Shown piece after piece: positions 6,569 through 11,716 of a stretch of DNA of 64,000 bases (its first letter is position 1; each line of letters opens with the position of its first letter). The notes beneath the pieces were generated by a model. That model made no database searches and was not told where the DNA came from. It saw only the letters and a program-made list of their open reading frames with translations. The stretch lies in contig NZ_RDQM01000009.1 in NCBI RefSeq assembly GCF_003703475.1, forward strand, positions 1 through 64,000. Direction: 5' to 3'. This DNA comes from Allofranklinella schreckenbergeri. GTDB lineage: Bacteria; Pseudomonadota; Gammaproteobacteria; Burkholderiales; Burkholderiaceae_C. A program made the translations under genes and the position numbers.

Positions 6569-6687
6569 ACAAGATGTTGCGCGACAAGCCTCTCAGCCCC
6601 ATCAACGCTTTGGTACGATCCTGCGCCTGGTCGCTGCCAGCTCGCTAAACCGACTCTTGCCCTCCCCCCTTGCTTCCTTGTCTTGCC

Positions 6688-7221
6688 ATGCGTTTTTTTC
6701 TGGTTTTCATCGCGCTGGTCGCCATCCTGTTCGGGCTGAACATGCTTCAGGTGGTGCAGCAAAACGTGGTACTGCCTTGGACGGCTTTGCTGGCGCAGAT
6801 TTGCGCCTGGCTGGTCACCACGTTCGACCACACCGTCATGGCCTCGGGCAAGGTGCTGTGGGATCCAGCCACGGGCCTGGGCGTCTCCATCGAGCCTGGC
6901 TGCAACGGCGTGGAAGCCTGCCTGCTGCTGTTCTCCGCCGTGCTGGCCTACCCCTCAAGCTGGAGCGCCAAGTTCTGGGGCATGACGCTGGGGTTTGTGG
7001 CCATCCAGATCGTCAATATCGCCCGCGTCATCAGCCTGTTTTACCTGCAACTGTGGGACAAGGCCGTGTTCGACTTCGCCCATGAATACCTCTGGCAAGC
7101 GCTGATCATGCTGGATGTGTTCATCGTCTGGCTGCTGTGGGTGCGCCGCGTCAGCCTCGGCGCGCCCAGCGATGCCAACGACGATGCAGCCCTGCCGCCC
7201 CCGCCTGCCGCCCATGCCTGA
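6688..7221 (+). CDS. xrtH: Exosortase H (XrtH)
   Basis: A 177-residue multi-pass membrane protein with the exosortase/archaeosortase catalytic triad. The Cys is in EPGCNGVEACLL, the Arg in NIARVISLFYL and the His in FDFAHEYLWQ, each next to membrane segments. The small size and these contexts match exosortase H, which is thought to cleave proteins ending in an IPTLxxWG-type sorting tail before surface delivery. No protein with that tail was found in this window, so substrates must be elsewhere. The ATG at 6688 (MRFFLVFIALVA) begins the first membrane helix directly. The next gene is 30 bp downstream. Confidence 0.85.
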   Translation: MRFFLVFIALVAILFGLNMLQVVQQNVVLPWTALLAQICAWLVTTFDHTVMASGKVLWDPATGLGVSIEPGCNGVEACLLLFSAVLAYPSSWSAKFWGMTLGFVAIQIVNIARVISLFYLQLWDKAVFDFAHEYLWQALIMLDVFIVWLLWVRRVSLGAPSDANDDAALPPPPAAHA

Positions 7222-7251
7222 TTGGGCTTGTTGACCTGTTCGCCGCCGCCC

Positions 7252-7902
7252 ATGTCCAACTCCCCTACCGCCACCGTCTTGTTCGACAAACGGCAGGTGC
7301 GCCTGCCCGTCTTCGCCCTCACCGTCTTTCTGTGGCTGGCGGTGCTCATCCCCGCCTGGGTGTACGTCAAACCCTGGACCTCCTGGCCCGTCAGCGCCAT
7401 CGCCGCCGTGGCGCTGGAATCGGGCGCCTCCGGCTGGGTGCGCGAGGCCCACACCCAGCCCTATCCCCATCATCTGGAAGTCAACTCCCGCATCGACTTC
7501 CCGGTGCCCAACTCCGGCGGCCAGCGCGCTGAACTCTCGCTGGAGGCCGACCCCGCCCGCTACGCCTACGGCCTGCCCATCTTTCTGGCCTTGCTGCTGG
7601 CCGCACGCCAAAAACGCCTGCTGCTAAAGGCCCTGGCGGGCTATGCCCTGCTGCTGCCATTCCAGGCCTTCACGCTGGTGTTTTTCATCTTGCAGGAGAT
7701 CATCGTCGCCGCCCAGTTGGACCTGGGCCACTTGCGCATCAGCGCCTGGCAGATCGAAGGCATTGTGTACGGCTTTCAATTGGGCACGCTGATCGTGCCC
7801 ACGCTGGTGCCCGTTCTGATCTGGCTGTGGCTGGACAAGCAGTTCTTCCTCACCGTCGTCGCCCGCACCATCTTGCCGCCAGGCGCGCGGCGCACGCGCT
7901 GA
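7252..7902 (+). CDS. Exosortase H-associated membrane protein
   Basis: A 216-residue membrane protein with an N-terminal helix (about 19-42), a periplasmic segment of about 60-65 residues, and three further hydrophobic stretches (FLALLLAARQ, LLLPFQAFTLVFFILQEII, LGTLIVPTLVPVLIWLWL). It follows xrtH by 30 bp on the same strand, an arrangement seen for the exosortase H partner protein in other Burkholderiales. The function is not known; a role in substrate handling by XrtH is inferred from position. Confidence 0.7.
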   Translation: MSNSPTATVLFDKRQVRLPVFALTVFLWLAVLIPAWVYVKPWTSWPVSAIAAVALESGASGWVREAHTQPYPHHLEVNSRIDFPVPNSGGQRAELSLEADPARYAYGLPIFLALLLAARQKRLLLKALAGYALLLPFQAFTLVFFILQEIIVAAQLDLGHLRISAWQIEGIVYGFQLGTLIVPTLVPVLIWLWLDKQFFLTVVARTILPPGARRTR

Positions 7903-7934
7903 GCAGCGCATGAACTGTGCTACATTGCCGCCCC

Positions 7935-7991
7935 ATGTTTGCAACCCACGCTTACTTTTTCTGGTTTGACATCTCTGTCCTTGGCGGATGA
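7935..7991 (+). CDS. Aromatic leader peptide (MFATHAYFFWFDISVLGG)
   Basis: An 18-codon reading frame rich in aromatic residues, Y-F-F-W-F at positions 7-11. It ends with TGA at 7989-7991, just before the antiterminator segment. There is no clear ribosome-binding site, but the predicted transcript begins almost at the ATG, so leaderless translation is plausible. Its position between a promoter and a terminator ahead of a DAHP synthase gene is the main evidence that it is a regulatory leader peptide rather than chance. Confidence 0.68.
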   Translation: MFATHAYFFWFDISVLGG

Positions 7992-8039
7992 GAGGGATCG
8001 ACCTGCAAGCGCATAGCAAACCAGCCCCCCATACCTGAA

Positions 8040-8070
8040 CCGCCGAGGCCCCCAAGCCCGGCGGTTTTTG
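8040..8070 (+). terminator. Attenuator terminator before DAHP synthase
   Basis: The hairpin is CCGCCG-A-GGC / GCC-CGGCGG with one bulged A, followed immediately by TTTTTGTTTGG. It lies 44 bp before the synthase ATG, so it can only act as a conditional (leader) terminator. Confidence 0.75.
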
Positions 8071-8113
8071 TTTGGCCTTTTGTTTTCTTTCTCACCCAGC
8101 CAACCCCACTGCC

Positions 8114-9211
8114 ATGCCCTACCTTGACCCCGTGGAAAAAACCAGCCAGACCGACAACCAGCGCATTCAGGAGATCAACGTGCTGCCGCCTCCCGATCAC
8201 TTGATCCGCTTCTTCCCCATCAAAGGCACACGCACCGAGCGCCTGGTGAGCCAGACGCGCGAACGCATCCGCGCCATGCTGCGCGGGCAGGACGACCGCC
8301 TGCTGGTCATCATTGGCCCATGCAGCATTCACGATCCCGCCGCCGCGCTCGAATACGCCCGCAAACTCGTCCAAGTGCGCGAGCAATACGCCGATACGCT
8401 GGAAATCGTCATGCGCGTGTACTTTGAAAAACCGCGCACCACCGTGGGCTGGAAGGGCCTGATCAACGACCCGTACCTGGACGGCAGCTTTCGCATCGAT
8501 GAGGGCTTGCGCATCGCCCGCCAACTGCTCATCGAGATCAACCGCCTGGGCATGCCCGCTGCCAGCGAGTTTCTCGATGTGATCTCGCCGCAATACATCG
8601 GCGATCTCATCAGTTGGGGCGCCATCGGCGCGCGCACGACGGAAAGCCAGGTGCACCGCGAGCTGGCCTCGGGCCTGTCCTCGCCCATTGGCTTCAAAAA
8701 CGGCACGGACGGCAACATCCGCATCGCCACCGACGCCATCCTTTCCGCCAGCCGCTCGCACCACTTCCTCTCCGTGCACAAAACGGGGCAAGTCGCCATC
8801 GTCGTGACCGAGGGCAATGAGGATTGCCACGTGATTTTGCGCGGCGGCAAAACCCCCAACTACGACGCGCAACACGTGCAGGCCGCATGCGATGAAATGG
8901 CCAAGTCCGGCCTGCATGTGCCCGTGATGATCGATTGCTCGCACGCCAACAGCCTCAAAGACCACACGCGCCAAAAAGCCGTGGCGCAAGACGTGGCGGC
9001 GCAAATCGCGGGCGGCTCGCGCCACATCTTCGGCCTGATGATCGAGGGCCACCTCAAGCCCGGCGCGCAGAAGTTCACCCCCGGCCAGGATGATCCGCGC
9101 CAGCTCGAATACGGCAAAAGCATCACCGACGCCTGCGTGGACTGGGAAGAATCGCAGGAAATCCTGGCTTTGCTGGCCCAAGCGGTGCAAAAACGGCGCG
9201 GCAGCGCTTGA
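8114..9211 (+). CDS. aroG: 3-deoxy-7-phosphoheptulonate synthase (DAHP synthase, type I)
   Basis: A 365-residue class I DAHP synthase that condenses phosphoenolpyruvate and erythrose-4-phosphate, the first step of the shikimate pathway. The motifs IIGPCSIHDP, VYFEKPRTTVGWKGLINDP, GARTTESQVHRELASG, GFKNGTDGN, and the C-terminal DCSHANSLKD and EGHL segments are those of the AroF/G/H family. The ATG at 8114 follows the attenuator described above. Which E. coli paralogue it matches in feedback inhibition cannot be decided by eye, so the symbol is a family label. A candidate small-RNA promoter overlaps its stop codon. Confidence 0.93.
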   Translation: MPYLDPVEKTSQTDNQRIQEINVLPPPDHLIRFFPIKGTRTERLVSQTRERIRAMLRGQDDRLLVIIGPCSIHDPAAALEYARKLVQVREQYADTLEIVMRVYFEKPRTTVGWKGLINDPYLDGSFRIDEGLRIARQLLIEINRLGMPAASEFLDVISPQYIGDLISWGAIGARTTESQVHRELASGLSSPIGFKNGTDGNIRIATDAILSASRSHHFLSVHKTGQVAIVVTEGNEDCHVILRGGKTPNYDAQHVQAACDEMAKSGLHVPVMIDCSHANSLKDHTRQKAVAQDVAAQIAGGSRHIFGLMIEGHLKPGAQKFTPGQDDPRQLEYGKSITDACVDWEESQEILALLAQAVQKRRGSA

Positions 9212-10697: not shown

Positions 10698-11678
10698 TCA
10701 ATGGTGCGATGGTTCCTTGCTCATCAGGCTGGCTACGGTGGCCACGACCATGGATGCCACGATCACGCCCAGCGAAGCCCAGGTGGATATCTCCGGCGCC
10801 CACTCGATGGGCTGGCCGCCGTTGATGAAGGGCAGCTCGTTGACGTGCATGGCGTGCAGCACCAGCTTGGCGCCGATGAAGGCCAGGATGAAGGCGATGC
10901 CGTAGTGCAGGTATTTGAGGCGATCGAGCAGGCCGCCGAGCAGGAAGTACAACTGGCGCAGGCCCATGAGGGCGAAGATATTGGCCGTAAAGACGATGAA
11001 CGGGCTTTGCGTGATGCCGAAGATGGCGGGGATGGAGTCGATGGCGAAGATCAAATCCGTAAAGCCCAGGGCGATGAAGACCATCAGCATGGGCGTCCAC
11101 ATCTTGCGCCCGTCCACCACGGTGCGCACTTTGGCGCCGTCGTAGTCGGGGGCGATGGCCATGTGCTTGCGGGCAAAGCGCACCACGGCAGGCTCCAGGT
11201 CTTCCTCCTGCTCATCACCGCCGGGGAAGGCTTGCTTGTAGGCGGTGTAAACCAGAAACGCGCCAAAGAGGTAGAACACCCAACTGAAGTTCTGGATCAA
11301 CGCCGCGCCCAGCAAGATGAAGATGCCGCGCAGCACCAGCGCCAGGATGATGCCCACCATCAGCACTTCCTGCTGGTATTGGCGCGGCACTTTGAACTGC
11401 GCCAGCAGCAGCACGAATACGAACAAGTTGTCGATGGAGAGCGAATACTCCGTCAGCCAGCCAGCGACGAATTGGCCCGCATATTCGCGGCCCGTGAAGA
11501 ACCACATCAGGCCCGCAAACACCAGCGCCAAGCCGACGTAAAACGTCACCCACAGCGAGGCTTCGCGCATGGAGGGGATGTGGGGCCGCTTGAGGATGAG
11601 CAACAAGTCGGCAACCAGGATCAGCGTCAGCACGACCAGCGAGCCGACTTCAAATTCAACAGGCAGAGCAAATTCCAT
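10698..11678 (-). CDS. TerC/Alx-family integral membrane transporter (probable Mn2+ exporter)
   Basis: A 326-residue TerC-family protein with about nine hydrophobic helices and the conserved acidic motifs EYSLSIDNLFVFVLL and FTDLIFAIDSIPAIFG that define the family. TerC/Alx proteins export manganese or metallate exocytosed enzymes. The upstream yybP-ykoY-type manganese riboswitch strongly supports a manganese role here. The start is ATG 11678; a TTG six bases upstream is in frame. There is no purine-rich ribosome-binding site: the 25 bases before the ATG are nearly all pyrimidine, which fits riboswitch control of initiation or of leader structure. Confidence 0.88.
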   Translation of the reverse strand: MEFALPVEFEVGSLVVLTLILVADLLLILKRPHIPSMREASLWVTFYVGLALVFAGLMWFFTGREYAGQFVAGWLTEYSLSIDNLFVFVLLLAQFKVPRQYQQEVLMVGIILALVLRGIFILLGAALIQNFSWVFYLFGAFLVYTAYKQAFPGGDEQEEDLEPAVVRFARKHMAIAPDYDGAKVRTVVDGRKMWTPMLMVFIALGFTDLIFAIDSIPAIFGITQSPFIVFTANIFALMGLRQLYFLLGGLLDRLKYLHYGIAFILAFIGAKLVLHAMHVNELPFINGGQPIEWAPEISTWASLGVIVASMVVATVASLMSKEPSHH

Positions 11679-11716
11679 AAGCAATGGGGGGAGAAAGGGA
11701 GGGGGTTCGGGTAAAT

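Follow-up and report, generated by a model that had tools for sequence, protein, structure and literature searches.

The window, a stretch of 64,000 nucleotides of Allofranklinella schreckenbergeri DNA, carries at 8114-9211 a gene for a DAHP synthase (DAHPS) of the AroF/G/H type, 365 amino acids long (TIGR00034, 524.3 bits against a cut-off of 173.2), and the leader elements described here lie, like this gene, on the + strand. Directly upstream, at 6670-7902, lie exosortase H (XrtH) and its associated membrane protein, a gene pair whose end at 7902 is 32 nt 5' of the ATG of a short, aromatic-rich reading frame at 7935-7991. Between this frame and the DAHPS gene, the DNA holds several segments that can pair in alternative ways and an intrinsic terminator at 8038-8069. 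Farther along, at 10698-11684, a TerC/Alx-family metal homeostasis protein is matched by the NCBIfam model R_switched_Alx.

A PF00793 search of the genome returned two places besides the gene at 8114-9211. One is a second DAHPS on contig C12, 55.6% identical to P0001, upstream of which we looked for an aromatic leader and found none; the other is KdsA, which has this Pfam domain in common with DAHPS. A scan of the whole window against Rfam gave no family at the gathering score, and a scan of 7800-8150 gave nothing at E ≤ 1, with the Rfam amino acid leader families unmatched.

An aromatic reading frame and its start

The short frame, MFATHAYFFWFDISVLGG, with its stop at 7989-7991, is the 18-codon leader frame with a Tyr-Phe-Phe-Trp-Phe run that an initial annotation of this DNA had pointed out. 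The run occupies 7953-7967 and is the predicted site of ribosome stalling. When the 180 nt upstream of the window's gene were shuffled, an equally aromatic-rich ORF arose in 10 of 1000 cases; the fold of the whole window leader was more stable than that of shuffled sequences (z = -2.26; 4 of 200 as stable).

We then compared the DNA upstream of DAHPS genes, 80 of them in named genomes and 30 in the window's family (its own gene included), counting as a leader any short ORF with at least five aromatic codons among eight. Such an ORF preceded DAHPS at 90 of the 110 loci (60/80 in the named genomes, 30/30 in the family), while the controls, run on 109 loci, produced one in 5 of 1090 shuffled upstream regions, in 0/109 regions farther upstream and on 1/109 reverse strands. 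Examples are the leaders of Comamonas L007 (MQVRSAFYFYFWFSVPGG), Variovorax L026 (MSALRAYFFAYFWFPVSGGREASA), Burkholderia L064 (MSAKFYFYFFWHLKPLADREG) and Rugamonas L075 (MHSFIFFTGYFYFSDSNPKAVE). Across 89 leaders, the aromatic fraction was 0.31 in frame and 0.13 and 0.10 in the remaining frames, and Phe, Tyr and Trp were all present in 76. Both synonymous codons were in use for Phe (254 TTT, 134 TTC) and for Tyr (100 TAC, 53 TAT), and exchanges among Phe, Tyr and Trp occurred between the leaders of relatives. At locus L058, the leader script had picked the wrong ORF, and this row was dropped after failing the terminator pattern described below.

The distance from the last aromatic codon to the GGCGG motif downstream was 8-17 nt in 88 of the 89 leaders (15 nt in the window) and 3 nt in L013. 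Taking the ribosome footprint from general knowledge, this spacing fits an antiterminator arm left free by a stalled ribosome. The window has Asp-Ile where most relatives have the Trp-Phe codons nearest to that arm. The position of the stop varies: it falls 6 nt after the start of GGCGG, at the antiterminator arm, in 18/89 leaders and 10-37 nt downstream in 71, and GAGAGG together with the nucleotides that follow it is alike in early-stop and late-stop leaders.

The sequence ahead of the ATG is conserved as well. An extended -10 element, TGCTACATT, lies at 7918-7926, with 8 nt between it and the ATG, and its position is kept in relatives: TAnnnT ends 6-9 nt 5' of the leader ATG in 71/89 loci (59 of these 71 reading TACATT), and TGnTAnnnT is found within 25 nt of the ATG in 70/89. 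A consensus scan for a full sigma-70 promoter at the leader found none. A Shine-Dalgarno-like motif was present before the leader start in 0 of 89 loci; 79 of 89 loci had a corresponding tetramer before an in-frame start of DAHPS, the window's DAHPS being among the ten without one. Since the conserved -10 element lies so close to the ATG and no Shine-Dalgarno motif is found, the leader mRNA of the window is probably leaderless or almost leaderless, with an RNA start that we infer at about 7933-7935, 0-2 nt before the ATG. The near-leaderless leader ORF proposed in the initial annotation fits these comparisons. TAnnnT was missing from the 5-9 nt before the ATG in 18/89 loci, namely 17 of the Burkholderia/Oxalobacteraceae type and L048, and 17 of these 18 carry TATAAA or TATAGT farther out instead, 25-47 nt 5' of the ATG.

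Alternative pairings and their spread among relatives

The antiterminator previously annotated as pairing 7980-7987 with 8040-8047 is present: CTTGGCGG at 7980-7987 pairs with CCGCCGAG at 8040-8047, including one G-U pair, and the helix reaches 9 bp when C7979-G8048 is added. Its 5' arm (region 2; 7979-7987, CCUUGGCGG) lies over the Leu-Gly-Gly codons of the leader, and its 3' arm (8040-8048) is part of the 5' side of the terminator (region 3), as covariation and folds indicate. The terminator itself (8038-8069; -19.3 kcal/mol) pairs 8038-8045 with 8059-8066 and, further in, 8047-8049 with 8056-8058, and has its U tract (TTTTT) at 8065-8069. The annotated sharing of 8040-8047 between the two structures is thus borne out, and the terminator is conserved: a pattern for it matched 89 of 90 leaders, the sole miss being L058, where the covariance model R1 (see below) does match.

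We scored the stems on A1, an alignment of 64 of the 71 Comamonadaceae-type leaders (L047, L090, L092, L094, L100, L110 and L111 were omitted, thinning close relatives), and on A3, a mixed alignment of 57 rows taken from the 82 that A1 and A2 contain. For the antiterminator, A1 had 92.6% of cells paired and 10 cells changed on both sides, neither figure being reached in any of 500 shuffles, and A3 had 93.9% paired and 17 changed on both sides, again with none of 500 shuffles as high. Compensation can be followed by name, with GACGG/CCGUC replacing GGCGG/CCGCC in one clade (L097, L103, L107, L109, L112) and CUGGCGG/CCGCCAG in Burkholderia-type leaders. The count of double-changed antiterminator pairs was not above that of shuffles (165/500 as high for A1, 61/500 for A3). 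The terminator had 96.2% of cells paired in the 64 sequences; its covariation on A1 was near the shuffle level (45/500 as high) and is uninformative because the stem hardly varies.

Folding agreed with the two states. In stretches trimmed to leave region 2 free and to lack the 3' arm of the terminator (arm 4), the minimum-energy fold contained the antiterminator in 89/89 leaders; with region 2 cut off, it contained the terminator in 89/89. When 7979-8075 of the window is folded whole, the terminator is energetically preferred although region 2 is available, and antitermination must therefore be kinetic.

As a first stem, the initial annotation had named an 8-bp pairing of the sensor codons, CTGGTTTG at 7961-7968, with CAAACCAG at 8017-8024. 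This complementarity is indeed perfect, but relatives do not keep the stem, and a complement of this length turns up in 5% of shuffled versions of the downstream sequence; we therefore rejected it as a general feature. In a search of 89 loci for the longest uninterrupted complementarity of the leader to the sequence downstream, 11 reached 8-9 bp, the letters differing from locus to locus and the shuffle frequencies being 0.025-0.125 (0.05 for the window's stem); L086 and L087 have GGTTTGC:GCAAACC in common, over other codons. A weak tendency toward an outer stem was seen across the 89 loci (mean z = -0.93, s.e. 0.13; 29 below -1.5; window -1.02), and the pairing first noted in the window is possible as a lineage-specific outer stem, at most one particular to the window.

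The alignments instead identify the conserved competitor as a predicted local hairpin (1:2) at about 7970-7995, found as the consensus fold of four same-genus leaders. It pairs UCUC 7972-7975 with GAGA 7990-7993, C7970 with G7995 and GUCC 7977-7980 with GGAU 7986-7989, and in the window it occupies part of GGCGG. The TTCTC:GAGAG helix was paired in 95.6% of A1 cells, with a covariation of 0.076; sliding it by +1 or +2 gave higher scores (0.131 and 0.100) but fewer paired cells. The pairings of the inner closure vary by clade. At least two of the five GGCGG bases were paired upstream in 88/89 leaders and at least three in 58/89, and the hairpin is weak in the window (local z about 0). The comparison of upstream regions that the initial annotation had suggested as a check thus found the aromatic codons, the compensatory changes in the antiterminator and the terminator kept, whereas the first stem was not kept and the terminator hardly varied.

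A covariance model of the leader, R1, was trained partly on groups on which it was then run, the window's family included. In the window's own genome it found one convincing site (E = 1.6e-16; next best 0.15). It matched 289/299 genomes of the family at E ≤ 0.001 (with adjacency to DAHPS read at fetched loci only), 72/250 of the order at E ≤ 0.01, leaving 178/250 without a match, and 8/229 of the class at E ≤ 0.001. By these matches, almost every genome of the family has the leader, and its occurrence in the order is patchy. Besides the window's own, we fetched 29 order loci (L122-L150; ten families by the numbering used), and in 29/29 the match has the DAHPS gene next to it, with an aromatic leader peptide encoded 149-255 nt ahead of the matched start. 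Of the eight class genomes, three belong to the window's family and two (L151, L152) have both leader and DAHPS. The remaining class matches, L153-L155, were set aside as chance, there being no DAHPS in the fetched stretch (the leader scan was unoriented, and L153 alone was inspected). The leader was absent from the Polynucleobacter, Cupriavidus and Rhodocyclaceae/Zoogloeaceae loci examined.

Further R1 matches were found at L018 and L062; L058 was confirmed, and L027 was weak (E = 0.0013). In L062, from Candidatus Burkholderia humilis, the leader RNA at 1298-1447 scores strongly (E = 9.8e-19), yet no ORF of 8-40 codons with an aromatic run was found, and the frame after the aromatic codons appears shifted.

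Because R1 had been trained on groups it was run on, we built a held-out model, R2, from A1 (the Comamonadaceae type) only. The test set, which we chose ourselves, comprised 40 leader loci (20 from named genomes, 18 of the 29 from the order and 2 from the class) and 15 loci lacking the attenuator leader. At E ≤ 0.1, R2 recovered 40/40 leader loci outside its training set (E from 2.2e-15 to 0.0075) and 0/15 loci without a leader. It is on the paired cells, the two-sided changes, the compensations named above and this held-out model that the case for the predicted attenuator stems rests.

A proposed attenuation mechanism and its rivals

Taken together, the conserved frame, its aromatic codons, the covarying antiterminator and the terminator make it very probable that 7918-8069 is a ribosome-mediated transcription attenuator of the DAHPS gene, and they support the aromatic attenuator that the initial annotation had proposed from the window's sequence. 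We infer that it senses the charging of the tRNAs for Phe, Tyr and Trp, the codons being what suggests that all three matter; leader translation, ribosome stalling and the effect of each amino acid are likewise read from sequence. RNA polymerase would start some 0-2 nt 5' of the leader ATG, and a ribosome would initiate on the leaderless or nearly leaderless RNA. A shortage of charged tRNA for Phe, Tyr or Trp would stall the ribosome on the codons at 7953-7967, where it would cover the local hairpin's 5' arm (~7970-7976), such that 7979-7987 stays free and can pair with 8040-8048 before the terminator's 3' arm at 8059-8066 is made; with the antiterminator formed, transcription would continue into the DAHPS gene. 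When all three are plentiful, a ribosome at the stop codon (7989-7991) would cover 7979-7987, the terminator would form, and transcription would end near 8065-8069. If no ribosome is present, the local hairpin would hold part of GGCGG, making termination the default.

The terminator could instead merely end the exosortase transcript, with the DAHPS promoter downstream of it and the leader ORF a product of chance. The upstream gene does end at 7902 on the same strand, but the conserved -10 element stands between it and the leader, leader frame and model match occur together before DAHPS in 29/29 order loci, and such an ORF arose in just 5/1090 shuffles; that no promoter-like site was found at 8070-8114 counts little, the scan missing the conserved -10 element too. 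We consider this reading extremely improbable. Hardly more credit goes to a leader that binds a small molecule or protein (a riboswitch or an RNA-binding repressor) to control the terminator, with the peptide incidental. GAGAGG and the nucleotides after it are kept even behind the stop codon, so that part of the constraint must act on the RNA; hairpin 1:2 and the antiterminator nevertheless account for that constraint, no Rfam family matches, and the aromatic codons are kept in frame, with both synonymous codons in use and with Phe/Tyr/Trp exchanges, all of which makes such control very improbable.

A different doubt concerns the start of the RNA within an attenuator. The window's leader could be leadered, its RNA beginning farther upstream and the conserved TACATT not being the promoter used, much as the 18/89 leaders without a close TAnnnT might suggest, 17 of which have TATAAA/TATAGT 25-47 nt upstream. 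Against this stand the fixed 6-9 nt spacing of the element in 71/89 leaders, the window's among them, the extended -10 in 70/89 and the Shine-Dalgarno-like motif in 0/89; a leadered window transcript is thus unlikely, though we give it appreciable weight.

The attenuator proposed here follows the same working principle as the E. coli pheA, pheST and trp leaders, in which sensor codons are combined with alternative 1:2, 2:3 and 3:4 pairings. Those leaders each sense one amino acid and serve a terminal branch or a tRNA synthetase. An aromatic-codon leader peptide before a DAHPS gene also has a counterpart in Corynebacterium glutamicum, in the aroR leader peptide of the aroF operon, reportedly from the work of Neshat et al. 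in 2014. That system belongs to an actinomycete and has Phe-Tyr-Phe only, whereas the leaders here are from Burkholderiales and have longer mixed runs, with Trp in 76/89. In the accessible text of PMC11802643 and PMC4046766, the aroR-aroF leader is described as a case of attenuation by stalling on Phe-Tyr-Phe, with transcription rising on Phe limitation and Tyr availability reported to be without effect, and the E. coli DAHPS genes are placed under the repressors TyrR and TrpR.

Other candidates are predictions. The uORFC-13-1 motif before aroF, as excerpts of PMC8632094 describe it, likewise combines a predicted Phe-coding uORF (a U run coding for at least one Phe) and a terminator ahead of a DAHPS gene; it comprises 24 sequences from Acholeplasma and environmental DNA and, unlike the window's leader type, has a ribosome binding site. 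Predicted 5' regulatory RNAs are also given for DAHPS genes of other Pseudomonadota, namely an attenuator before a DAHPS-tyrA operon in Vibrio (PMC1173090, in part) and candidates at aroF/aroH in Shewanella (PMC2659441, in part); the Vibrio operon differs from the window in including tyrA, and those of Shewanella are single candidates. In the tyrA table of PMC1173090, within the accessible portion, the sole Burkholderiales entry is Bordetella parapertussis, with an attenuator before the gyrA-to-himD row and not before DAHPS. The terms aroG, aroF, aroH and DAHP do not occur in PMC2965389. In Sinorhizobium meliloti, the trpL attenuator RNA is described as leaderless, beginning at the AUG of the leader peptide, and additional action in trans is reported for this rnTrpL RNA and its peptide (PMC10117765, in part); unlike the window's leader, it precedes trpE, concerns Trp and comes from an alphaproteobacterium.

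Our literature searches, which left most subscription journals outside their coverage and so do not show absence from print, found no DAHPS leader in Burkholderiales or Comamonadaceae. This agrees with the initial annotation, which knew of no characterised case in the group, DAHPS attenuation itself being known in Corynebacterium glutamicum. The kind, ribosome-mediated DAHPS attenuation, is thus known, and the Burkholderiales RNA family is undescribed as far as we searched. DAHPS being the gate of aromatic amino acid synthesis, a large bacterial group appears to read tRNA charging directly at a point where E. coli uses TyrR/TrpR. The leader family, with its model, stems and spacing, is defined well enough for annotating hundreds of genomes, and the probably leaderless window type and the leadered, Shine-Dalgarno-free Burkholderia/Oxalobacteraceae type offer a natural comparison of how translation of an attenuator is initiated.

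The enzymes behind the leader

We placed 108 DAHPS proteins on a midpoint-rooted tree with long branches, of which 91 rows were leader-bearing (L001, L003, L041, L078 and L080 were omitted as duplicate, KdsA, truncated or short). The leader-bearing enzymes fall into two clades, as seen with the window's leader and gene (7918-9211), L056-L081 and L084-L113, and the branch that separates them has a length of 0.62 and a support of 100/100. Members without a leader occur on both sides: those of Planctomycetota, Verrucomicrobiota, Cupriavidus and Polynucleobacter on one, and those of Rhodocyclaceae, Zoogloeaceae, Methylotenera, Vibrionaceae and Chitinibacteraceae on the other. Five changes in leader presence are needed on the tree, the starred branches forcing at least three.

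The leaders of both clades are taken to be homologous because R2 recognises both, and the two clades would be explained either by an old paralogy or by an exchange of the enzyme while the leader stayed in place. More tentatively, and on balance rather doubtfully, one may picture a leaderless RNA that integrates the charging of all three aromatic tRNAs as the gate of shikimate entry across much of the Burkholderiales, a module that outlived its enzyme and whose terminated RNA of ~135 nt, together with the peptide, may act in trans.

The Cupriavidus and Polynucleobacter DAHPS genes (L040, L044, L028, L033, L036) are without a leader and yet sit among leader-bearing genes in the tree; this gap may reflect either loss of the leader or the acquisition of genes that came without one.
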